DNA of 64,000 nucleotides from Alphaproteobacteria bacterium (GTDB lineage: Bacteria; Pseudomonadota; Alphaproteobacteria; Micropepsales; Micropepsaceae), in contig PMKE01000067.1 in assembly GCA_003158585.1 (NCBI GenBank), positions 29,574 to 93,573 on the forward strand, written 5' to 3'. Shown here piece after piece: positions 15,140 to 48,307 of the stretch. How positions within the stretch are numbered: position 1 is the stretch's first letter; every line of letters starts with the position of its first letter. Below the pieces are notes generated by a model that searched no databases, was not told the origin of the DNA, and was given only the letters and a program-made list of their open reading frames with translations. Made by a program: the position numbers and the translations under genes.

Positions 15140-17989
15140 TTACCTCCAGCTCAGGTTGAGCGCTTCGGCTTCCCGCCTTTCGTCAAACGGCTTGTTGCCG
15201 GCGAGTACGCCGCCGAGAGTCTTCTTGGCTTCGTCTTGATGACCCGTGGCGTGGAGCACGACGGCCAGGTGGTAGCCGATTTCCGGGCTGTCGCCGTCTG
15301 TGGCGTGCGCCCGCTGCAAGGCCGTCAGCGCACCGGGCCCATCCTTCGCCAGCCATCTGACCCAGCCCAGCGTGTCGAGTACGGCCGCCGACTTCGGCGC
15401 TTGCTTTGCCGCTTGTTCGGCGTAGGTCACCGCCTGCCTCGGGTCCTTCTTCTGGAGCAGCCAGCTAAGATTGTTCAGCGCGACGACGTTTTGCGGCCGC
15501 AACTTCAGGACGGCGCGGAACTGCAGTTCCGCCGTCGCAGGATTGGCCGCCATTTGTCCTTGGGCAAATTCCAGGCGGGCGCCGATGTCGTTCGGGTGCT
15601 TGGCGATCCAGTTTGACAGCAGCGCGTCGGCTTGTTTCTGCTTCTGTGACATCCGGAGAAGCTGACTCGACATGATGACGGCGGCTTCGCTGGGATGCTG
15701 CGCCAGGCTCTGCTTGAGCACCGCCTGCGCCTGATCGTACTGCTTGAGCGCAGAATAGGTACTCGCCAGCAGCAGGTCGGATTGCGTGCCGGGATTCTGC
15801 TTGGCGCCGTCCTGCGCCGCGGCGACTGCATCGTCTCCGTTGTTGGTCGCCAGCGCATAGCGAATGAGCGCCGACCTCGCCGCGTCGAATTTCGGAGCCA
15901 ACTGGACCGAGCGCTTATAGGCTGCAAGCGCGCCGTTCGTGTCTTTCTTGGCGGCGAGCGCGGTGCCCAGCAGCAGTTGAAGCTGCGGGGAATCGGAATG
16001 CGATGTCGCCAGGCGCCGTAACGTTGCCAACGCCGGATCGACTTGGCCGGTTGCCAGCTGGATCTCCGCCTGTACGGTCTGCGCGTTCAGGTCGCCGGGC
16101 GCGAGCTTGAGGAAGGCGCCCACCGCCTCTGCCGCTTCCTTCATGCGGTTGCGGGCGACGAAGAAGCTCGTCAGCGCGAGGTTCGTCATGGAACTCTTCG
16201 GCTCGGTGGCCACCGCCCGCTTCAGCAGGGCCAGCGCGTTCTGGTCCTGCCCCATCTGCATGGAGAGTTCCGCGCCCCGGATCATCGCCATGACGTTCTT
16301 GGGGTCTGCGGCGAGCACGGCCTGGATGTCGGCGTTCGATCCCCTCACGTCCGCGCGCGCGGCGCGGGCCACGGCACGGTCGTAGAGCGCCGGGATGAAT
16401 TTCGGATCGATCGCCAGGGCACGCGTGAAAGCACCGATCGCTCCGTTGAAGTCGCTTTTCGCGACGAAAATCTGGCCCTGGAAAAGCGGCCCATACGGAC
16501 TCTTCGGCGCCTTAGCCGCGAGCTTGTCGGCGACGGACGACGCTTCGGGGAGCTGATTGCTGCGGAGCAAGGCGGTTATCAGCAGGCCCGCAGTCACCGA
16601 ATCACCCGGCTGCTTGGCATTGAGATCGCGAAGCTGCTTGAGCGCCGTTTCCATGTCGCCGCTATTCAGACTAGTGGCCGCGAGCTGCCGCTTAAGAAGA
16701 TCGCCGCCGAAACCGTTGGCGCTCGCCTTTTCGAAATACTCCGTCGCCTTTCCGAACTGCCCCGTCATCGCATAGGCCTGCCCGAGCAGAGCCATGATGC
16801 GCGGCTCCTGCGAGTCCTTCATCGGCAGCAGCGTGTCGAGCGCCCGTTGTGCGTTCTTCGTCTGAAGATATTGCGAAGCGAGGTAGATGCGCGGCTCCGG
16901 ATAGTCCGGGTATTTCGATACCGAGGCCGAGAGCAGAGTCATCGCGACGTCGTTATGACCGCTCACCAACGCCATTTGCGCGACGACAGGCCCGATCTCC
17001 GGTCGCGAATTGACGAACTCCGGTGGCAGCGCCTGGGCGATGCCCCAGGCGCCCTTGGCGTCCTTCGCCCGCTCCAGCAGCAGCGCCTTGTAGTAGAGCG
17101 CCTGCGGCAGGTCCTTCGACTGGGCGAGAGTGGCATCGACGTCGGCGCGCGCCTTGCCGTCCTGGCCGAGCTGCATGTAAACACCGGCCCGCGCCAGGAG
17201 GGACACCGGATTGCTGGGATACTGCTTCACAAGATTGTTGGCGGGGCCGAGCGCCTGATCGGCTTTGCCCGTCACCTGCAACAGGGAAATCTTGAGCAGC
17301 AACACGTTGGCGTCCCTGGGCGCCTTGGCGGAGGCCTCGTCGGTCAGGCTCAGCGCCAGCTTCGTGTCGTTCTGATCTTTGGCGAGGCGCGCGCGCGCGG
17401 TAAGACCGGGAACGTCCCGCTTGATCGCCAGCGCATTATCCAATTCGCCGACGGCGAGTTCGGGATGGCCCAATTTGACCTGTGCCGCTCCGCGCGCCCT
17501 CAACGTAGCGGCCGCAAGATCGCTGCGGTCGTTGGCGTCCGGCGCAGGGAACTGATCGATGACCTGCTGCGCCTCGCCGCGATTGATCATGGCTTCGTAC
17601 AACAACGGCAGCACCTTTGCGTCGGGCGCTCCGTTCTGGCGCGCGGCGCTGAGTTCGCGCGCGGCGGACGCCCAGTCGCCGGACTGCATATAGGCGTATC
17701 CGAGCTCTATGCGGACATCGGCGTTCTTAGGCGCCAAGTTGGCGGCATTCCTCAGATAGATCACCGCCACATTGGGGTGCCCCTGCTGCATCGCCTGGCG
17801 CGCCTGCCGCAGTAGGTTGTTCAGCCCCGAGGGGGTACTGGAGTTCTGCGCGGCAGGCTCGCCGAGGCTGGCGTAACTCGGCTCCATGCCGAGCGAAAGC
17901 CCGGTCAATGCGCCCACGGCGACCGCGAGCATCAGCCGGCGCCGGCCGCGGACCGAATTCAAGGTGTCGTACAGTGTCAAGTCAGGCAC
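15140..17989 (-). CDS. prsT: XrtA/PEP-CTERM system TPR-repeat protein PrsT (TIGR02917-like)
   Basis: 949 aa, many TPRs, signal-like N-terminus; encoded directly downstream of prsK-prsR. Confidence 0.88.
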   Translation of the reverse strand: MPDLTLYDTLNSVRGRRRLMLAVAVGALTGLSLGMEPSYASLGEPAAQNSSTPSGLNNLLRQARQAMQQGHPNVAVIYLRNAANLAPKNADVRIELGYAYMQSGDWASAARELSAARQNGAPDAKVLPLLYEAMINRGEAQQVIDQFPAPDANDRSDLAAATLRARGAAQVKLGHPELAVGELDNALAIKRDVPGLTARARLAKDQNDTKLALSLTDEASAKAPRDANVLLLKISLLQVTGKADQALGPANNLVKQYPSNPVSLLARAGVYMQLGQDGKARADVDATLAQSKDLPQALYYKALLLERAKDAKGAWGIAQALPPEFVNSRPEIGPVVAQMALVSGHNDVAMTLLSASVSKYPDYPEPRIYLASQYLQTKNAQRALDTLLPMKDSQEPRIMALLGQAYAMTGQFGKATEYFEKASANGFGGDLLKRQLAATSLNSGDMETALKQLRDLNAKQPGDSVTAGLLITALLRSNQLPEASSVADKLAAKAPKSPYGPLFQGQIFVAKSDFNGAIGAFTRALAIDPKFIPALYDRAVARAARADVRGSNADIQAVLAADPKNVMAMIRGAELSMQMGQDQNALALLKRAVATEPKSSMTNLALTSFFVARNRMKEAAEAVGAFLKLAPGDLNAQTVQAEIQLATGQVDPALATLRRLATSHSDSPQLQLLLGTALAAKKDTNGALAAYKRSVQLAPKFDAARSALIRYALATNNGDDAVAAAQDGAKQNPGTQSDLLLASTYSALKQYDQAQAVLKQSLAQHPSEAAVIMSSQLLRMSQKQKQADALLSNWIAKHPNDIGARLEFAQGQMAANPATAELQFRAVLKLRPQNVVALNNLSWLLQKKDPRQAVTYAEQAAKQAPKSAAVLDTLGWVRWLAKDGPGALTALQRAHATDGDSPEIGYHLAVVLHATGHQDEAKKTLGGVLAGNKPFDERREAEALNLSWR

Positions 17990-18003: not shown

Positions 18004-19379
<1,376 letters not shown>

Positions 19380-19383
<4 letters not shown>

Positions 19384-21425
19384 GTCGCCACCCGGCTTTC
19401 CGCTTCCTGACAGGCAGGAAGAAAGAGCGACACCGTGGTGCCTTCGCCCAGTGTGCTTTCCACTTCGATATCCCCTCCAAGGTCGCGCATCGTCGAACGC
19501 GCCTGATAGGCGCCGATGCCGAGCCCCTTTTTCTTCGTGGTGTGCAGCGGCCGGAACAGGTCGCGTGCGATGAAGTCCGGGCTCATGCCGGGGCCCGCAT
19601 CGCGCACCCGCACGCGCACGCGCCCGCCCGCAAGATCGACGGAGAGGCTGACGCTGCCCGGTTCGGGGCTGGCCTCCATCGCGTTGGAGACGACGTGTTC
19701 GAGCGCGCTCTCGAACGAGCCGGGTTGGGTGATTTCGGCATAGATCGCCTCGCCGTCGCGGCCGAAGACGAGACCGGAGCGCGCCTTCTTCTGCGCGAAG
19801 CGGGCGATGAGATCGCTGACGTTCACTGGCCCGCGCGAGGCGGCGGCCGGCGCCGCGGTGCCGTCGCGCAGCTTGGCGATGAGGCCCTGGAGGTTGTCGA
19901 CCGCGTGGCGGATCGTTTCCATCATGTCGGCGCGGAAGTCCGCGTCGTCGCCGAAACGTTCGGCGTTTTTCAGCAACATGCTGAGTTGCCCCGCCGTGTT
20001 CTTGAGGTCGTGCAGCGCGAAGGTGACGCGGTTGTTGAATTCAGCGAGCTGCTGCGAATCGGCAAGCGCCTGCGCCGTCTGCTCGTGGACGAGATAACCG
20101 GCAAGTTGCGTGGCGATCAGCGCCACGAGGTTGCGGTCTTCCCAGTCGAGCCGCTTCGGCGCGCGCGGCTTGTGCAGCAGGGAGAAGCCTATGAGTTCGT
20201 CGCGGAAACGGAGCGGCACCACCAGCCAAGCCTCGGGGAAACGCTTCTTCCAGGCCGGGGCGGGCGCGTCATCGCCGGAGGACAGTTCCAGGAATACCAC
20301 CTTCTCGTCGTCGAAAACCTTGAGGATTTCGTCGTTCTCCTGGATCGGCCCGAAATTCTCGCCGAATACGGAATAGGCGAGACGCGCGAACTGCCGCCAG
20401 CCGCTGCGCCGCACGAACAGCACGCCTCCCGGGCTGTCGAGCAGGTCGGACAGCGTGAGCAGCACGCGCTCGGGTCCGCCGCGGTCTTCGTAGCGCGACA
20501 GGGCCTGGATGAACTTCGTCCATTCGACGCGGTAGTCGTATTTGTAGCTGAAAAAGTTTTCGTTGATGAACGTCTTGAGCTTCGAGCGCACGGAATGGGT
20601 CGAGAGCGCGACGATCATCGCCACCAGACCGGCAAAGCCGAGAACGATCGACAGAACGACCGCGGGCGTTCCCCCGAAATGCCGGACATAGAGAGCCGCC
20701 GCCGCCGTTCCCTGGAGCAGGATGCCCGCGAAGATCAACGTCGTCGAATGGAACACCACGGTGCGTGAGGAGTGGAGCTTCAGGCGCAACGATTCGTTGC
20801 GGATGGCAGTGACGACGAAGAGCGGAAGCGTCACGAGATAGACGAGCGGATGCGCGGCGCTGAAAGTCTCGATGCTGCTGCCGCCGAGAAATTCCGGAAT
20901 GCGCAGTATCACCTGATAGGCGTAAAGCCCCGTCAGTCCGATCACCATCAGCTTGACGGACCACAAACGCGAACGGCCGATGTTGCGGAACAGGTTCTCC
21001 GCCAGGATGAGACCCATCAGCGAAACGGCGAGCTGCGCGGTGGGCAGGTTCACCCTGACGCCGAGGCCCGTGTCGATATTCGCGCCGGTGATTGCGAAGC
21101 CCAGATCGACGGCAATCAGAACGACGCCTATCAGCGCCAGTCGGAGCCACAACGGATGACGGTCGTCGTCCTGACGCGCTAGGCCGATCGTCACCGCGAA
21201 CCAGGACGCATCGCGTAAAGCGCCGGCAGCGGGCGGCAGCCAATCTTCTACCCAGCCGAGATCGTTCGCCGCGCGCGAGAGAGCCCACAGCGCGGTCATG
21301 GTCGCCGCCAGGGCGAAGAGATAATTCGGCCAGGAGTGCTTGCCGCGCGCGGGGAGGATCACGGCGAAGGCCGTGTAAGCGATAGCCGTCAGAAGGGCGG
21401 CATATAGAGAAATCCCCAGTTCCAT
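19380..21425 (-). CDS. prsK: XrtA/PEP-CTERM system histidine kinase PrsK (TIGR02916-like)
   Basis: Multi-TM N-terminus, GAF-like middle, HATPase motifs (HVVSNAMEASPE, VRDAGPGMS, KKGLGIGAYQAR); ATGA overlap with prsR. Confidence 0.94.
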
Positions 21426-21515
21426 CTAGCCCTTGGCGCGTAGAGTAGAGTTGTAATAATTATCAAGAACGGAGAGCGATCTCAATTGAACACGGGCCTG
21501 CGCAGTAAAATATTT

Positions 21516-22796
21516 TTACAGACGCAAACTTTGCGCACGCGTGGCCGCTATAGCTTCCGCAGGATCAAGCTGACACGCGCGGCGATGCGCGAGAACTCTA
21601 CGGAGCAGGGTTAGCTGACCTTGCGTCGTGTCGTGCCAATCGAATTTCTCGGCATGACGGCGTGTAGCGGCGCGCTCGGGAAGCTTGGCGAACAGGCGCC
21701 GCACGCCGTCGACGATACCTTCGGCATCGTACTTCTCCATGAGCACGCCCGCGTCGGGAGTGGTGACGACTTCGGGCGTTCCCCAGATTGCCGACGCCAC
21801 AACAGGCGTACCGCAGGCCATCGATTCGAGCAGCACGTTCGCCCAGCCCTCGCGGCTTGATGCGAGCACCAGCGCATCGAGCGCACTGTATACCGCCGCG
21901 AGATTCTGTTGCGTGAGCGTGCCAAGGAAGCGAACGCGTCCCGTTAGTCCCAGACTGCCGGCGAGGCGCTCCAGCGAGTCACGCTCCGGCCCTTCTCCGA
22001 CGATCAGCAGATCCGTATCCGGCAGGGAAGCCAGCGCGCGGATGACGTGGTGATGTCCCTTGCGCTCGATCAGCCAGCCGACGCTGCCTAGCGTGCGCTG
22101 CGTCAGGCCGAGTTCGCGCCGCACGCGGCTGCGGTCGCCCGGCTTGAACAGATCGAGATCGACACCGTTGCGCAGCACCGTCACGCCTTCGGCTGGCGTG
22201 CCGAGTTCCACCAGCTTGTCCTTCAGTGCCTGGCAGACCGTGACCAATCCGTCGGCCCGGGCAGCGGCTTCGCGGATCATCCGCCGCGGCGCGGAGAATT
22301 CCGGAATGAGATTGAGGTCGGAGCCGCGTGCCGTCACCACCACCGGTATGCCGAAATGGCGTCCGAGCCGCACCGCGGCCACACCGTCGGGATAGAAATA
22401 ATGCGCGTCGATGAGATCGTAGCGCCGTCCTTCCGCCAGCAGCTTTGCGAGGCATTGCTTGAGGCTGCGATAGAGCGTCGTCGGCGAAAGCGACATGCCC
22501 GCCTTCGGCACGACGAAATAACGCGGATGATGAACCTCCAGCCCGTCCAGTGTCGTCCGCCGCGGCACGAGGTCGAGACGGCCGGCAGGGGCGTAGCGCA
22601 GCCACGACGGCATCCACGGCACCGGCGCGATCACGTCGGCCGTCGCTTCGCCGGTGGCGAGCAGCTTGGCGAGCCGCGTCGCCACGAAACGCCCGTGCTG
22701 CGGCCGGATCGCGTTGGGGAAAAGCGTCGTGACCGTCAGCAGCGACAGCGGCCGGTCTTCCGGCGTCCAGGGACTGGGGGAGAAAAAAGCGTTCAC
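21516..22796 (-). CDS. Glycosyltransferase family 4
   Basis: TVTTLFPNAIRPQHGRFVATRLAKL...VTARGSDLN...LRNGVDLDLF...EGWANVLLESMACGTPVVAS. Confidence 0.9.
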   Translation of the reverse strand: MNAFFSPSPWTPEDRPLSLLTVTTLFPNAIRPQHGRFVATRLAKLLATGEATADVIAPVPWMPSWLRYAPAGRLDLVPRRTTLDGLEVHHPRYFVVPKAGMSLSPTTLYRSLKQCLAKLLAEGRRYDLIDAHYFYPDGVAAVRLGRHFGIPVVVTARGSDLNLIPEFSAPRRMIREAAARADGLVTVCQALKDKLVELGTPAEGVTVLRNGVDLDLFKPGDRSRVRRELGLTQRTLGSVGWLIERKGHHHVIRALASLPDTDLLIVGEGPERDSLERLAGSLGLTGRVRFLGTLTQQNLAAVYSALDALVLASSREGWANVLLESMACGTPVVASAIWGTPEVVTTPDAGVLMEKYDAEGIVDGVRRLFAKLPERAATRRHAEKFDWHDTTQGQLTLLRRVLAHRRACQLDPAEAIAATRAQSLRL

Positions 22797-35866: not shown

Positions 35867-37128
35867 ACATTCTGTTTCTCTGCCACCGCATTCCCTATCC
35901 GCCCGACAAGGGCGAGAAGATCCGCGCCTACAATATCCTGACGCATCTGGCGAAGAAGCATGTGGTGCATCTGGCGGCCTTCGTGGACGATCCGGCCGAT
36001 ATGGCGCACGCGGCAAAGCTCCGCGAGCTGGTGAACGGCGAATGCCTGCTCGTGCCGCTGAGCCGTACCGCAACGCTGTTGCGGATGGCGCACGCTTTCG
36101 CGACCGGCCGCCCGCTCACCACCTCCTACTTCGCCGGCAGACGCATGAGCCGCTGGATCGGCGAGTTGTTCAAGACGTACTACATCGACCGCGCCTTCCT
36201 GTTTAGCTCCGCGATGGCACCGTTGTTGTCCGGCCGCTTTCCTCCGGCGCGCGCCATCCTCGACATGGTCGACGTGGATTCCGACAAGTGGCGCCAATAC
36301 GCGGACGCAACACGCGGTCCCAAGGCATGGGTGTTCCGGAGAGAGGCGAAGACGCTCTTTGCCCTGGAGCGCAAGGCCGCGGCCGCGTTCGGCTCTACGC
36401 TGTTCGTCTCGCCCTTCGAGGCGCAGACCTTCGCAGACATGGCGCCGGAAACTCGCGCCCGCGTACACTGTGTCGCCAACGGCGTGGACCACAAGCTCTA
36501 TTCGCCGACGGATTCCCATCCCTCGCCGTTTCCGACCGGAGAGCTGCCTATCGTGATGGTCGGCACGATGGATTACCGCCCCAATTTCGAAGGTGCGATC
36601 TGGTTCGCGGAGAAGGTGCTGCCGATCGTCCGCGCGGTACTGCCCGCGGCGCGGTTCTATGCCGTCGGCGCGAAGCCCGCAGCGCAGCTAAGAAAGTCGC
36701 GCGAAGGCGTGATCGTGACGGGCAGGGTGGACGACATCCGCCCCTATGTGGCGCATGCGGCGGCGGTGGTAGCGCCGCTCAAGCTGGCGCGCGGCGTGCA
36801 GAACAAGGTGCTGGAAGGCATGGCGATGCAGAAACCGGTCGTCGCCACGGGGCCTGCCAGCCGCGGTCTCGATGTTGCCCCCGGTGTCGATCTGTTCGTT
36901 GAGGACGAGCCGCATCGCTTCGCCGAGGCGGTGATTGCCGCGGCCACGGGCCCCGACCGCGCGCGGATCGCCGCCAACGGACGGCGCCGCGTCGAACGCG
37001 ACTACGACTGGGAGCGCAATCTGGCCGAACTCGACCGCCTCTTGGAGCGCCAACCGCGCCTTGAAACATACAGCACCGCGAACGTCCGGAGCACCGGCCG
37101 TTTGCCGCTTGAGGAGAGCGCGGAATGA
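35863..37128 (+). CDS. Exosortase A-associated glycosyltransferase (TIGR03087-like, PEP-CTERM/EpsH1 Stp1)
   Basis: MNILFLCHRIPYPPDKGEKIRAYNILTHLAKKHVVHLAAFVDDP; C-terminal GT-B domain; ATGA overlap. Confidence 0.94.
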   Translation: MNILFLCHRIPYPPDKGEKIRAYNILTHLAKKHVVHLAAFVDDPADMAHAAKLRELVNGECLLVPLSRTATLLRMAHAFATGRPLTTSYFAGRRMSRWIGELFKTYYIDRAFLFSSAMAPLLSGRFPPARAILDMVDVDSDKWRQYADATRGPKAWVFRREAKTLFALERKAAAAFGSTLFVSPFEAQTFADMAPETRARVHCVANGVDHKLYSPTDSHPSPFPTGELPIVMVGTMDYRPNFEGAIWFAEKVLPIVRAVLPAARFYAVGAKPAAQLRKSREGVIVTGRVDDIRPYVAHAAAVVAPLKLARGVQNKVLEGMAMQKPVVATGPASRGLDVAPGVDLFVEDEPHRFAEAVIAAATGPDRARIAANGRRRVERDYDWERNLAELDRLLERQPRLETYSTANVRSTGRLPLEESAE

Positions 37129-38678
37129 GCACGGAAGGCAGAACAGCAGGGGCAGGTCCCCACGCTGTCGGAGGTGTGTCTGCGTGGACCTTGTACCTTT
37201 CCGTGCTCGGCGTGTTGTTGCTGGTTCTCGGCGCGCTCTATTGGGGGGACGTGAGAGACGCGGTGCGGGTATGGTGGATTTCGCCGACCTTCTCGCATTG
37301 CTTCCTGATCATCCCGGTCTCGGCCTATCTGATCTGGGGCAAGCGGCACGTGCTGGCGCAACTCACGCCCGCCGCCTTCCCGAAAGCGCTGCTGCTGGCG
37401 TTGCCCGTTATGGCGGCTTCGTTCGTGGGATCGCTGGCCTCGATAAACGAAGTCGAGCAGCTTGCCTTCGTCGCCTATGTGCAGATTCTCACCCTCGCGG
37501 TGCTGGGTCCGCAGGTCTACCGGAAGATCCTGTTTCCCAGCCTGTTTCTCTTTTTCCTCGTGCCGATGGGCGAGTACCTGATTCCGCCTTTGCAGCGCTT
37601 CACGACGTGGTTCATCGACACCGGCCTCAATCTGCTCGGAATTCTTCACTACACGGAAGGTACTCTGATCCAGCTGGCGAACGGCAGTTTCAGGGTGGTC
37701 GAGGCCTGCGCGGGCCTGCGCTTCCTGATCGCGACCATCGCCGTCGGCGTGCTGTTCGCCCATTTCACCTACCGCAAGCGGACCAAGATCGCGCTGTTTC
37801 TCGCGGCCTGCGTGATCGTTCCCATCATCAGCAACGGTTTCCGGGCGCTGGGGATCGTGCTGCTCGCCCATTTCAGCGATAACAAGATCGCCGTCGGCGC
37901 CGACCATCTGGTCTACGGCTGGGGCTTTTCGGTGGCAATCCTAGCCCTGCTGATGCTCGTCGGGTCGCGCTTCGCCGACGACATGCCGGCGGACGAACCG
38001 GCCCGGACGGACTCGGCTGCGCCGCCGCCCACTCCGCACGCCCTCACACTGACAATTCTTGCTGCGCTCGTCGCGATTTCATTGGTGCCGGCATTCCACT
38101 TCTGGCGCGCACAGACGCAAAAGGAGATCGACGTGACGGCGTTTTCCGCGCCGCCGCAAATCAAGGGCTGGTCTCTCGGCAAGGTCTCGGAAGATTGGCA
38201 CCCGCTCTATGCCGTGCCAGACGCGGGATTGAGTTTTGCGATGCGCGGCGATGCGTTCTCGCCGCCCGTCGATGTCTTCGTGAATTACTATGGGGTGAGC
38301 GGCGAGCGCCGCAATCTCATCTCCTCTACCAACAAGCTTTGGGACGAGGAGGAATGGCATCGGGTTGCCGAAGGCGAAGCCGTCGCCACGCTCGGCACCG
38401 AAAATGTCCGCTTCGAGGAACTGCAAATCGCTTCGGGCGGACTCATGCGGCTGGTCTGGTGGACCTATTCGTCGGGCGGCTCGTTCACCACCAGCGGCAT
38501 GCACGTGAAACTCGACAGGGTGAAGACGGCGCTGCTCGGCGGCCGGGGCGCGGCGCTCGTCGCGGTTTCGACGCCGATCGATGTCGATGTCGAGAGCGCG
38601 CGTGCAAGGCTGCGTCGTGCGCTGGCGGATTTGGGCGGGCTCAAAGGCCGCCTCGAACATCCGGTCATGGAACCCTAG
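37125..38678 (+). CDS. xrtA: Exosortase A (XrtA) with C-terminal EpsI domain
   Basis: Multi-TM exosortase with expected Cys/Arg/His motifs (VVEACAGLRFL, ISNGFRALGIV, GADHLVYGWGF) then EpsI-like domain (PPQIKGWSLGKVSEDWHPLY...VFVNYYGVSGERRNLISSTNKLWDEEEWH). Confidence 0.95.
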   Translation: MSTEGRTAGAGPHAVGGVSAWTLYLSVLGVLLLVLGALYWGDVRDAVRVWWISPTFSHCFLIIPVSAYLIWGKRHVLAQLTPAAFPKALLLALPVMAASFVGSLASINEVEQLAFVAYVQILTLAVLGPQVYRKILFPSLFLFFLVPMGEYLIPPLQRFTTWFIDTGLNLLGILHYTEGTLIQLANGSFRVVEACAGLRFLIATIAVGVLFAHFTYRKRTKIALFLAACVIVPIISNGFRALGIVLLAHFSDNKIAVGADHLVYGWGFSVAILALLMLVGSRFADDMPADEPARTDSAAPPPTPHALTLTILAALVAISLVPAFHFWRAQTQKEIDVTAFSAPPQIKGWSLGKVSEDWHPLYAVPDAGLSFAMRGDAFSPPVDVFVNYYGVSGERRNLISSTNKLWDEEEWHRVAEGEAVATLGTENVRFEELQIASGGLMRLVWWTYSSGGSFTTSGMHVKLDRVKTALLGGRGAALVAVSTPIDVDVESARARLRRALADLGGLKGRLEHPVMEP

Positions 38679-40703: not shown

Positions 40704-40730
40704 GAAGTGTAAAAAGCGATTACAGCATTA
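40704..40730 (+). promoter_or_regulatory. Candidate PrsR enhancer site upstream of first PEP-CTERM gene (GAAGTGTAAAAAGCGATTACAGCATTA)
   Basis: 21 of 27 positions identical to 42738-42764 (minus strand); contains inverted repeat TGTAA-N7-TTACA. Confidence 0.6.
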
Positions 40731-40806
40731 CGAAGATTACCGCACGTTATCTGCAATTACGCTTCTAATCGCTTGAATATATTAGTGTAATTTATGATGA
40801 CAATGA

Positions 40807-40822
40807 TGGCATGAATTCTGCT
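40807..40822 (+). promoter_or_regulatory. Sigma-54 -24/-12 promoter TGGCATGAATTCTGCT
   Basis: Consensus TGGCACG-N4-TTGCW; invariant GG and GC with correct spacing; two mismatches. Confidence 0.75.
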
Positions 40823-40861
40823 TTTGGTTTCTTCGGCTCCAATCGGAAACAGGAGATACGG

Positions 40862-41893
40862 ATGCTGTCGAGTTCGAAAAGGATCGCCGGGCTTTTGCTC
40901 GCCGGGGTCGCAGGGCTGGCGCTCGCCACCGGCGCGGCGTCGGCAAATCCGATCGTGAGTGTCACCTACACGGCTTCCGCCCCCGTCACATCGACCGACT
41001 GGTCGACTTCCCTGTCTGTTCCCAAGTTCAATCCTGCACTGGGTACGCTGCTTTCCACACAGGTCAATTTGACGGGAAATCTCGACGGGTCTCTGAAGGT
41101 CGCGAACAGCCAGACGTTTACGAACGTCATCGGTTCGGCCTCTGCTGCGACACCCTCGACGGCCGGTTTCTCGAACACGGCCCACACCGTGCATTGCACG
41201 GCGGCGAGCACGAGCTGCTCGATCTGGAATATCACCTACACGTCTTCGCCGCCCGCCACGATCCCGACGAACACGATCAATTCGACGCTTTCTGCGACGA
41301 TTACGCTGCACGTAGGATCGAACCTCATCGTCGTTCTGCCCGCGGCAAACGTCTCCGATACGTTTGATGCAGGACCGAAGACAGATCCGGCCACATATTC
41401 GTTCACGAAACAGTATGGCGCCTCTAACGGCAGCAGCACGGTCATCACCAAGACGACGGCGCTCGCCAAGACGATATCCGGCACCGGCATCCAGTCTCCG
41501 GGTGTCGTTCCGCCGCCGTCCGGTGTGTACACATCCAATCCGTGCAACGAGGTCTATGGTCCGTGCACGGTCGGTTCACATACATACAACGTGGGCAAAT
41601 TCTATACCGGGTTGAACGCGACCGCTTCGAATTCGGCGTTGTACACGTTGCCGGGAGATCTGGCGTTATTCACAGGACTGGGTGTGCTCATTCTGCCGAT
41701 CGACGCCGCAGGCGATTCCTCACATACCGGCGGCGCGAATGTGGATTTCGAGTCGACGGCTGAAGCGGGCGCAGGGGCGATTTTTACCTACACCTATATC
41801 CAGGCACCCGAGCCGATCACACTGTCGTTGTTCGGAGCGGGTCTTCTTGGAGCGGGCGTGTTCCGCCGTCGCCGCAAGAGCAAAGCCGTCTAG
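40862..41893 (+). CDS. PEP-CTERM sorting domain protein, choice-of-anchor E-like
   Basis: Signal peptide MLSSSKRIAGLLLAGVAGLALATGAASA; Ser/Thr-rich body; C-terminal PEP-CTERM tripartite motif APEPITLSLFGAGLLGAGVFRRRRKSKAV; SD AGGAG before ATG 40862. Confidence 0.93.
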   Translation: MLSSSKRIAGLLLAGVAGLALATGAASANPIVSVTYTASAPVTSTDWSTSLSVPKFNPALGTLLSTQVNLTGNLDGSLKVANSQTFTNVIGSASAATPSTAGFSNTAHTVHCTAASTSCSIWNITYTSSPPATIPTNTINSTLSATITLHVGSNLIVVLPAANVSDTFDAGPKTDPATYSFTKQYGASNGSSTVITKTTALAKTISGTGIQSPGVVPPPSGVYTSNPCNEVYGPCTVGSHTYNVGKFYTGLNATASNSALYTLPGDLALFTGLGVLILPIDAAGDSSHTGGANVDFESTAEAGAGAIFTYTYIQAPEPITLSLFGAGLLGAGVFRRRRKSKAV

Positions 41894-41940
41894 ATCAAGG
41901 AGAGCAAAGACCGGGAGGCGACGGCATCCCGGCTTCGCAG

Positions 41941-41974
41941 ATGGCGCCCTCGCGGCGCCATTTTGCTTTTTGAC
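41941..41974 (+). terminator. Rho-independent terminator of first PEP-CTERM gene
   Basis: ATGGCGCC-ctcgc-GGCGCCAT followed by TTTGCTTTTT. Confidence 0.85.
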
Positions 41975-42046: not shown

Positions 42047-42616
42047 TTAGGCCGCTCTCTCGCGACGGCGCGCGAATCCGAAGAACGTGAGCACCAGAAG
42101 CCCGCCACCGAGAAGCATGAGCGAGCTTGTTTCGGGCACGTCGTGTCCGCCGCCGCCGCCACCGCCACCGCCGCCGCCACCGCCACCACCACCACCACCA
42201 CCACCACCGCCGCCGCCGATCCAAGGTCCTCCAGGCACATACACAAATGTGTTGCCAGGAATGTTCTCGGCGGTTTCGACAGGTGCGGTGCCGCCGGGTT
42301 GTGCGGGTGCGCCGGTATGTGCGGGTGTCTCAGTTGCGACGGCCGGCTTCGCCGGGGCGATCTTCAGCGCGCGTGACATGCTGTCGGAGAATTTTTTGCC
42401 CCCTTCTTCAAGGGCGAGCGACATGGCGTCGGAGAGTCTCTTGCCCGCTTCCTCTGCGTCTGCAGCGGCGCCCTCGGCACCGGCGAGGACTTGGTGCAAT
42501 GTTTCTGCGGAGGCACGGCTGAAGGCGGGGATCAGGACCGAGTAGCGCACAGCACCCAGCATGACGATCACTGCCGCTGTGGCCGCCAGTACGCTACGGA
42601 GCTTGATTGAACGCAC
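42047..42616 (-). CDS. PEP-CTERM sorting domain protein with 24-residue poly-Gly linker
   Basis: C-terminus (G)24-HDVPETSSLMLLGGGLLVLTFFGFARRRERAA is a canonical PEP-CTERM signal; start taken as GTG 42616 because the longer ORF start (42694) lies inside the sigma-54 promoter. Confidence 0.85.
   Translation of the reverse strand: MRSIKLRSVLAATAAVIVMLGAVRYSVLIPAFSRASAETLHQVLAGAEGAAADAEEAGKRLSDAMSLALEEGGKKFSDSMSRALKIAPAKPAVATETPAHTGAPAQPGGTAPVETAENIPGNTFVYVPGGPWIGGGGGGGGGGGGGGGGGGGGGGGGHDVPETSSLMLLGGGLLVLTFFGFARRRERAA
42146..42217 (-). repeat. Trinucleotide GGN tract (24 Gly codons, including an uninterrupted run of 8 GGT)
   Basis: Directly counted: 72 nt of gcc/acc/tcc triplets on + strand. 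Confidence 0.95.
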
Positions 42617-42677: not shown

Positions 42678-42693
42678 AGCAAGCTGTGTGCCA
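42678..42693 (-). promoter_or_regulatory. Sigma-54 -24/-12 promoter TGGCACACAGCTTGCT
   Basis: 15/16 match to TGGCACG-N4-TTGCW. Confidence 0.8.
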
Positions 42694-42737
42694 TGCAAAA
42701 GACGTAGCGAGATCAAAACCTTAGAAATACTCCGGGT

Positions 42738-42764
42738 TAATGTTGTAAACACCGCTTACACTTC
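42738..42764 (-). promoter_or_regulatory. Candidate PrsR enhancer site upstream of second PEP-CTERM gene (GAAGTGTAAGCGGTGTTTACAACATTA)
   Basis: 21/27 identity to 40704-40730; TGTAA-N7-TTACA inverted repeat. Confidence 0.6.
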
Positions 42765-43485: not shown

Positions 43486-43668
43486 ATTTGTCTAATTTGG
43501 TCAGGTATTTACCGCGACTCAAGACTCCATCTTGCGGCTGCACAAAGTTTTGGCCAGACTTGGCATGAATTTCGCTATGGGGCCGGGCTCTCGGGGGTGT
43601 TAACCCTGTCGGTACCCTATGGCATCTGCCGGCCGACGAGGCCGGCGGTCCACAAAAAGGGTGTTCGT

Positions 43669-46795: not shown

Positions 46796-48307
46796 ATGGC
46801 CGTCTCCCAACGCCTCGAACTCCGCCAGGGCCAAACCCTGGTCATGACGCCGCAGCTCCAGCAGGCGATCAAGCTGCTGCAACTGTCGAACGTCGAGCTT
46901 TCGGAATTCTGCGAGCAGGAGCTGGAGAAGAATCCGCTGCTCGAACGCGACGATTCTCAGCCCGTCGAAGCCGAGCGCGAAGCGCCGCAGCCCGAGGCCG
47001 CGGCCGAGCCGCTGGAAGACACACTGGCGCGCGACGACTTCACCAAATGCCAGGACATGGATGCTTCGAGCGACGATCTTTACGACGGCGCCGAAGCCCC
47101 GCAGACTGCCGCCCCGATCACCCCGCTCGCCGATTGGACCACGCTGCGCTCCACGCAGCGCTTCGAAGGCGACGAAGACCTCCTGGAATCCACCGTTGCC
47201 GAAGGCGGCTCGCTCAAGGACCACCTTCACGAACAGCTCTCCATCGCGGCGCTGGACCACGACAAGCGGCTGATCTGCGTGGCGCTGATCGACGCCGTGG
47301 ACGAAGCGGGCTATCTGCGCGTCGACATTGACGAACTGGCGGAGCGGCTGGGCGCGGACAAGGCGGCGGTCTGCGAAACGCTTGCCGTGCTGCAAGGCTT
47401 CGAGCCGGTCGGCGTCGGTGCGCGCGACCTGGCGGAATGCCTGGCGCTGCAGCTCAAGGACAAGGACCGCTACGACCCGGCGATGGCGACGATGATCGCC
47501 CATCTCGATCTGGTGGCCAGGCGCGACACGGCGCAGTTGGCGCAGCTCTGCGGTGTGGACGCGGCCGACATCGCCGACATGCTGACGGAAATCCGCGACC
47601 TGTCACCCAAGCCCGGCCTGGCATTCAGCTCGGAGACGGTGCAGCCCGTGGTGCCGGACGTACTGGTGCGCGTTGGCCCCGACGGCGGCTGGCACATCGA
47701 ATTGAATTCGGAGACGCTGCCGCGGCTGCTGATCAATTCGCGCTACTACGCGAAAGTCGCGGCGCACGCTCGCGACAAGGAAGCCAAGACCTATCTCACC
47801 GACTGCCTCAACAACGCCAACTGGCTGGTGAAGAGCCTCGACCAGCGCGCGCGGACGATCCTCAAGGTGGCGACCGAGATCGTGCGCCAGCAGGACGGGT
47901 TCCTCACCTACGGGGTGCGGCACCTGCGGCCGTTGAACCTGCGTACGATTGCCGATGCGATCAGCATGCATGAATCGACCGTGAGCCGCGTCACCTCCAA
48001 CAAATACGTCTCGACGCCGCGCGGCCTGTTCGAACTCAAATACTTCTTCACGGCCGCCATCCAGTCCCTGGACGGCGCCGAATCGCATTCCGCAGAGGCG
48101 GTCCGCGACCGCATCCGCGAGATGGTCGAGCGCGAAGATTCGCGCGAGGTCCTGTCCGACGACCGTATCGTCGCACTCCTGACCGCGGATGGTGTGAACA
48201 TTGCGCGGCGCACGGTAGCCAAGTACCGGGAAGCCATGCGAATCCCCTCCTCGGTTGAACGGCGCAGACTCAAAAGCGCGGAATCCGCCAATACGGCCAT
48301 TCGCTGA
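46796..48307 (+). CDS. rpoN: RNA polymerase sigma-54 factor
   Basis: N-terminal QRLELRQGQTLVMTPQLQQAIKLLQLSNVEL; C-terminal RpoN box ARRTVAKYREAMRIPSSVERRR. Confidence 0.98.
   Translation: MAVSQRLELRQGQTLVMTPQLQQAIKLLQLSNVELSEFCEQELEKNPLLERDDSQPVEAEREAPQPEAAAEPLEDTLARDDFTKCQDMDASSDDLYDGAEAPQTAAPITPLADWTTLRSTQRFEGDEDLLESTVAEGGSLKDHLHEQLSIAALDHDKRLICVALIDAVDEAGYLRVDIDELAERLGADKAAVCETLAVLQGFEPVGVGARDLAECLALQLKDKDRYDPAMATMIAHLDLVARRDTAQLAQLCGVDAADIADMLTEIRDLSPKPGLAFSSETVQPVVPDVLVRVGPDGGWHIELNSETLPRLLINSRYYAKVAAHARDKEAKTYLTDCLNNANWLVKSLDQRARTILKVATEIVRQQDGFLTYGVRHLRPLNLRTIADAISMHESTVSRVTSNKYVSTPRGLFELKYFFTAAIQSLDGAESHSAEAVRDRIREMVEREDSREVLSDDRIVALLTADGVNIARRTVAKYREAMRIPSSVERRRLKSAESANTAIR

Follow-up and report, generated by a model that had tools for sequence, protein, structure and literature searches.

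The question raised by this locus is whether the sequence at 40807-40822, which overlaps the naive start of a PEP-CTERM gene, is a promoter, which factors would switch it on, and where translation of the gene begins. The analysis covered the whole 64-kb stretch of DNA (hereafter the window), the 3.1 Mb genome of the source organism, which is represented by a draft genome, and the genomes of its relatives. Judging from the sequence features described below, this site can be assigned with high confidence to the enhancer-dependent sigma-54 promoters of the PrsR/PEP-CTERM type, with translation predicted to start at ATG 40862 (Table 1). Such promoters are of a known kind, given that RpoN/PrsR control of PEP-CTERM genes has already been described by Haft et al. 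(2006) and in Aquincola and Desulfovibrio.

Table 1. Promoter elements, genes and predicted trans-acting factors in the window.
Feature	Position	Strand	Details
PrsT, TPR protein	15143-17989	-	TIGR02917, 478 bits (cut-off 312)
PrsR, PEP-CTERM-box response regulator	18007-19383	-	TIGR02915, 601 bits (cut-off 502.6)
PrsK, histidine kinase	19383-21425	-	TIGR02916, 475.5 bits (cut-off 300)
Exosortase XrtA	37125-38678	+	C-terminal EpsI domain; TIGR03109, TIGR02914
XrtA-type amidotransferase	38694 (start)		Within the window
PrsR-type activator box (Haft motif 1)	40708-40724	+	Perfect palindrome TGTAA-AAAGCGA-TTACA; 82 nt before -24
IHF-like site ATTCAAGCGATTA	40766-40778	-	8/9 consensus positions; 28 bp before focal -24; predicted binding
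Sigma-54 -24/-12 promoter TGGCATGAATTCTGCT	40807-40822	+	Pattern, score rank, same position in G033 orthologue
Naive ORF start ATG	40811-40813	+	Formed by the -24 element (TGGCATG); expected to be absent from the sigma-54 transcript
Predicted transcription start	40833-40835	+	12 nt past the C of the -12 GC, from sigma-54 geometry
Shine-Dalgarno-like AGGAG	40851-40855	+	6 nt 5' of ATG 40862
CDS, choice-of-anchor E, PEP-CTERM protein	40862-41893	+	343 aa; family matches
Terminator-like hairpin 3' of the focal gene	41939-41963	+	Weak: 2 such sites found vs 1.7 expected
Second PEP-CTERM-like gene	42047-42616	-	Proposed GTG start 42616; ends VPETSSLMLLGGGLLVLTFFGFARRRERAA
Sigma-54 promoter TGGCACACAGCTTGCT of the second gene	42678-42693	-
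IHF-like site GATCAAAACCTTA of the second promoter	42711-42723	+	8/9; 17 bp before -24; opposite strand to the gene
PrsR-type box TGTAA-GCGGTGT-TTACA (TGTAAGCGGTGTTTACA) of the second gene	42744-42760	-	50 nt before -24
RpoN	46796-48307	+	Only sigma-54 gene found in the genome

The focal site contains the GG (40808-40809) and GC (40820-40821) dinucleotides of the -24 and -12 elements separated by 10 nt and bounded by T40807 and T40822, and is close to the YTGGCACG-N4-TTGCW consensus. By a weighted consensus score, the weights of which come from general knowledge of these promoters and were not fitted, it is the second-best sigma-54 site on both strands of the window, outscored only by the promoter that precedes the second PEP-CTERM gene (42693-42678, minus strand). 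The alternative is that the match arose by chance and that an unrecognised housekeeping promoter drives the gene, with translation starting at ATG 40811 or 40862. Indeed, GG-N10-GC is a common pattern; with one mismatch allowed, TGGCAYRNNNNNTGCW occurs 7 times in the window compared with 6.7 expected, that is, at the chance level, and the 15 copies of TGGCAY-N6-TGCT in the genome do not exceed the 22 copies of the reversed-pattern control. Plain counts of sigma-54 patterns are uninformative, and only location relative to PEP-CTERM genes discriminates. By location, however, the two best-scoring sites of the window are found exactly at its two PEP-CTERM genes, the only two exact matches to TGGCAYRNNNNNTGCW in the window each lie directly 5' of such a gene, and the same holds for 7 of the 15 genomic copies of TGGCAY-N6-TGCT, where the expectation for 12 upstream regions of 200 bp each is about 0.006. 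The presence of a PrsR-type box at the known spacing, the retention of the promoter in an orthologue with diverged surroundings (see below) and the lack of any sigma-70-like site on the forward strand between 40600 and 42800 likewise argue against a chance match, which appears to be extremely improbable compared with a genuine sigma-54 promoter. Counting from the -12 GC of this promoter, the predicted +1 at 40833 leaves a 29-nt leader before ATG 40862. Base 40833 is a T, and the first purine after it is G40835; transcription may therefore start at G40835, and a start within 40833-40835 is expected. The preliminary description had proposed the exact -24/-12 spacing, a start near 40833 and a leader of about 29 nt; the spacing is borne out by the sequence, and recalculation yields the same predicted leader.

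Upstream of PEP-CTERM genes, Haft et al. (2006) described a 17-nt motif 1 that ends with TTTACA and is followed, after a spacer of 62.8 +/- 10.6 nt on average (range 32-92), by a sigma-54-like motif 2, with these motifs present before 99 of the 167 proteobacterial PEP-CTERM genes (PMC1569441). The focal box, TGTAAAAAGCGATTACA, ends with ATTACA, matches motif 1 and precedes the TGG by a distance that falls within this range. The exact palindrome TGTAA-N7-TTACA is found six times in the genome, in all six cases upstream of a PEP-CTERM gene, and the reversed control pattern is not found at all. Of the PEP-CTERM genes of this genome, 12 were scored, and 11 of them have a sigma-54 site. The search for the combined pattern (TTACA-spacer-TGGC-N7-TTGC) identified seven places in the genome, of which five are known PEP-CTERM genes, one is a PEP-CTERM gene missed by PF07589 (on C29, ending with VPEPSSLAIAGTAMLLCLFAFAGRTRRRRA) and one is of another kind. 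A search by promoter motifs alone can therefore recover a PEP-CTERM gene that Pfam missed, and the phasing and IHF-like element described below would sharpen such searches.

PrsK, PrsR, PrsT and the exosortase are all encoded in the window and all score above the curated cut-offs. Conceivably, the sigma-54 promoter could respond to a different enhancer-binding protein of the NtrC family, considering that about two dozen matches to the response-regulator model are present in the genome and that the box is attributed to PrsR by association and phylogenetic profile. Nevertheless, the palindrome is located only upstream of PEP-CTERM genes, prsKRT belong to the same locus, and binding by PrsR has been demonstrated in D. 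vulgaris (PMC3333781). Furthermore, 16 of 60 related genomes carry PEP-CTERM genes, and all 10 genomes with PrsR above the cut-off belong to these 16. A point against PrsR is that the other 6 PEP-CTERM-positive relatives have no PrsR above the cut-off, although most of their genomes are fragmented. Control by another activator is thus a very unlikely scenario, and PrsR is the best candidate. The RpoN/PrsR control claimed in the preliminary description, and its view that this regulon is readable from raw sequence, are supported by the box, the genome-wide layout, the conservation in the orthologue and the presence of PrsK/PrsR/PrsT, XrtA and RpoN in the window. The promoter, start and control proposed there all hold, but the activator box and the repetition of the arrangement at the second PEP-CTERM gene had been missed.

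The start codon is the second part of the question. The protein translated from ATG 40862 opens with a clear signal peptide, MLSSSKRIAGLLLAGVAGLALATGAASA, followed by NP, and contains a recognizable PEP-CTERM region (TIGR02595, 22.5 bits with a cut-off of 16; PF07589, 29.8 bits with a cut-off of 20.7). The closest orthologue, from genome G033, is 68% identical and begins at the homologous methionine; at the corresponding position it carries a -24/-12 site, TGGCACGAGTCGTGCT, together with a motif 1 matching at 9 of 10 positions, and this promoter is conserved despite the divergence of the surrounding DNA. No start codon is present in the frame of the orthologue upstream of the homologous methionine. 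Given these features of the orthologue, translation very probably begins at ATG 40862. Translation from ATG 40811 on a longer transcript, which would add a 17-residue N-terminal extension covering MNSAFGFFGSNRKQEIR, is compatible with the frame being open from 40811 and with an undetected upstream promoter. This possibility is very hard to reconcile, however, with the structure of the orthologue, with the Shine-Dalgarno-like AGGAG just before 40862 and the canonical signal peptide that begins there, or with the overlap between the extension and the -24/-12 element, and it is given little weight here compared with the start at 40862. The earlier choice of ATG 40862, made on the strength of AGGAG and a clean signal peptide, is thus backed by the orthologue. 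The accompanying statement that ATG 40811 "cannot be" the start holds for the sigma-54 transcript but is slightly too strong in general, since a transcript from an upstream promoter could include this codon. The situation is not confined to the focal gene: this genome has 11 PEP-CTERM genes linked to a sigma-54 site, and in 5 of them the first ATG of the frame lies 5' of the predicted transcription start, as it does in 20 of the 77 promoters from the two sets described below (12/33 and 8/44). In such cases, naive gene calling misplaces the start, which would corrupt signal-peptide prediction.

The same arrangement is repeated at the second PEP-CTERM-like gene of the window, which contains a glycine-rich stretch and shows no match to NCBIfam models or in the PF07589 search. 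Here too, the naive ATG (42694-42692) overlaps the TGG of the gene's own -24 element, and GTG 42616 is the likely start.

The generality of the layout was assessed in two sets of promoters. The discovery set consists of 43 upstream regions (12 genes of this genome and 31 of relatives), and 33 of these contain a sigma-54 site (score of at least 34), compared with 5.3 in shuffled sequences (maximum 12) and 3 on the antisense strand. The held-out set includes 60 regions fetched afterwards, with frames found by pattern in 58, of which 44 contain a sigma-54 site against 7 antisense. Across the analyses of spacing and spacer content, 65-78 related promoters were used. Where motif 1 matches well (9/10 or better), its distances to the -24 element fall into groups at 41-43, 50-53, 61-65, 72, 82-85 and 93-95, with a best period of 10.63 bp and a resultant of 0.72 that none of the 1000 random sets reached; the periodicity is seen in each of two subsets separately and persists after the removal of similar promoters (a single pair exceeds 70% identity, and the median is 0.36). 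With each distinct spacing counted only once, 10 of the 1000 random sets reach the observed value. The phasing is an exploratory result because it was looked for after the spacings had been seen, though both subsets agree. The focal 82-nt spacer is about 1-3 bp off the exact 10.6-bp series.

In this genome, two neighbouring PEP-CTERM genes on contig C6 (L010 and L011) have perfect boxes that lie unusually far from the promoter, with spacers of 159 and 125 nt. A strict motif search in 399 genomes across the phylum yielded only three further places (one 5' of a PEP-CTERM gene, one 5' of an HU-type gene and one unclear), so that the strict pattern has a limited reach.

The spacers contain a third element. 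When the IHF consensus, WATCAANNNNTTR, was scored between the activator box and -24, both promoters of the window were found to carry a match with one mismatch. The focal IHF-like site is not significant on its own, with 20% of the shuffles reaching 8/9. Across the promoter sets, the enrichment is strong: z = 5.2 for the spacers of 22 discovery promoters (0 of 400 shuffles), with flanks at about 1 and eight permuted IHF patterns reaching at most 1.9, and z = 5.3 for the spacers of 35 held-out promoters (0 of 300), with flanks at -0.8 and -0.3 and ten permuted patterns mostly between 0.2 and 2.5, one at 3.2. The position is constrained as well: of 52 strong matches on the minus strand within 60 bp, 25 are located 16-19 bp before -24 (binomial p ~3e-16, for a range picked after the peak had been seen). 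A smaller group, which includes the focal promoter, occupies the less common position at 28-30 bp. In the 61-65 spacing class, alignment with no selection for IHF sites reveals AaCcc.TTGaa at -30 to -20, which corresponds to the same half sites. The genome also encodes an IHF alpha subunit (IhfA family, TIGR00987 above the cut-off). A tripartite layout, with a PrsR box, an IHF site and a -24/-12 promoter arranged in helical-turn steps, could well be common to the PEP-CTERM promoters of this group. In most cases the IHF site would precede -24 by 16-19 bp, and several promoters whose spacers are longer would have it at 28-30 or 39 bp; that activation by PrsR needs bending by IHF is part of the same, moderately probable, model.

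These observations suggest the following mechanism for the focal promoter. The RpoN-containing RNA polymerase would occupy 40807-40822 as a closed complex, and PrsR, phosphorylated by PrsK, would bind the palindrome at 40708-40724, as expected from its family. Because the box and the promoter face roughly the same side of the helix, PrsR could touch the polymerase through a DNA loop, with IHF near 40766-40778 probably bending the spacer. ATP hydrolysis by PrsR would then open the promoter, with transcription predicted to begin near 40833 and translation from ATG 40862 to give a secreted protein that is likely processed by XrtA. With the phasing and the IHF-like element, the way in which exosortase-linked surface proteins are activated can be put to a direct test.

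Among the known systems, the region described by Haft et al. is the closest in its components, with a 17-nt motif ending in TTTACA or TTACA, a spacer in the same range, a -24/-12 element, prsK/prsR/prsT and an exosortase; the differences are that the focal -24 element creates a naive start codon and that the helical phasing and the IHF-like site seen here are not mentioned in that text (section 7; PMC1569441). The pepA gene of Aquincola tertiaricarbonis RN12 similarly combines a PEP-CTERM product, a -24/-12 promoter and a predicted upstream enhancer; its start was mapped at TGGCAC/CTGCTT and its dependence on RpoN1 was proven by experiment, whereas the focal promoter is known from sequence alone (PMC9850573). 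In Desulfovibrio vulgaris, the PrsR-type regulator DVUA0057, also an NtrC-family response regulator, was demonstrated to bind 5' of each of its five predicted PEP-CTERM targets, several of which have predicted sigma-54 promoters; the reconstructed motif of DVUA0057 is shared with DVU0110 (PMC3333781, PMC4641369). The IHF-like site between the box and the -24/-12 element, which is presumed to bend the DNA, resembles the arrangement at IHF-assisted sigma-54 promoters, such as those of the D. vulgaris orp operons (PMC3897727). No link between IHF and PEP-CTERM promoters was found in the literature searched, namely, that outside subscription journals. The same-face placement of box and promoter, with a likely bending site between them, would be an added detail of a known type of switch for which no description was found.

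Several further sequences resemble parts of this system. A second, imperfect box at 40786-40802 (plus strand; TGTAATTTATGATGACA, 9/10), 4 nt before the focal -24, might be a secondary PrsR site or a chance match. Another 9/10 match, AGTAAAATATTTTTACA at 21504-21520, is located about 80 nt 5' of prsK and could point to autoregulation, but no convincing -24/-12 site was found upstream of prsK and autoregulation is not claimed. At 43561-43576 (plus strand), TGGCATGAATTTCGCT is identical to the focal promoter in 14 of 16 positions and precedes an SIS/CBS-domain-like gene at 43597, with no PrsR box nearby. The PEP-CTERM gene missed by PF07589 (L089; G000 C29:14121-14191, minus strand) is preceded by TGGCATGACGCTTGC and a half-conserved box. 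Finally, in a distant genome (L097; G266 C49:5339-5423), the full box and sigma-54 pattern are found 5' of a gene for an HU/IHF-type DNA-binding protein-like product.
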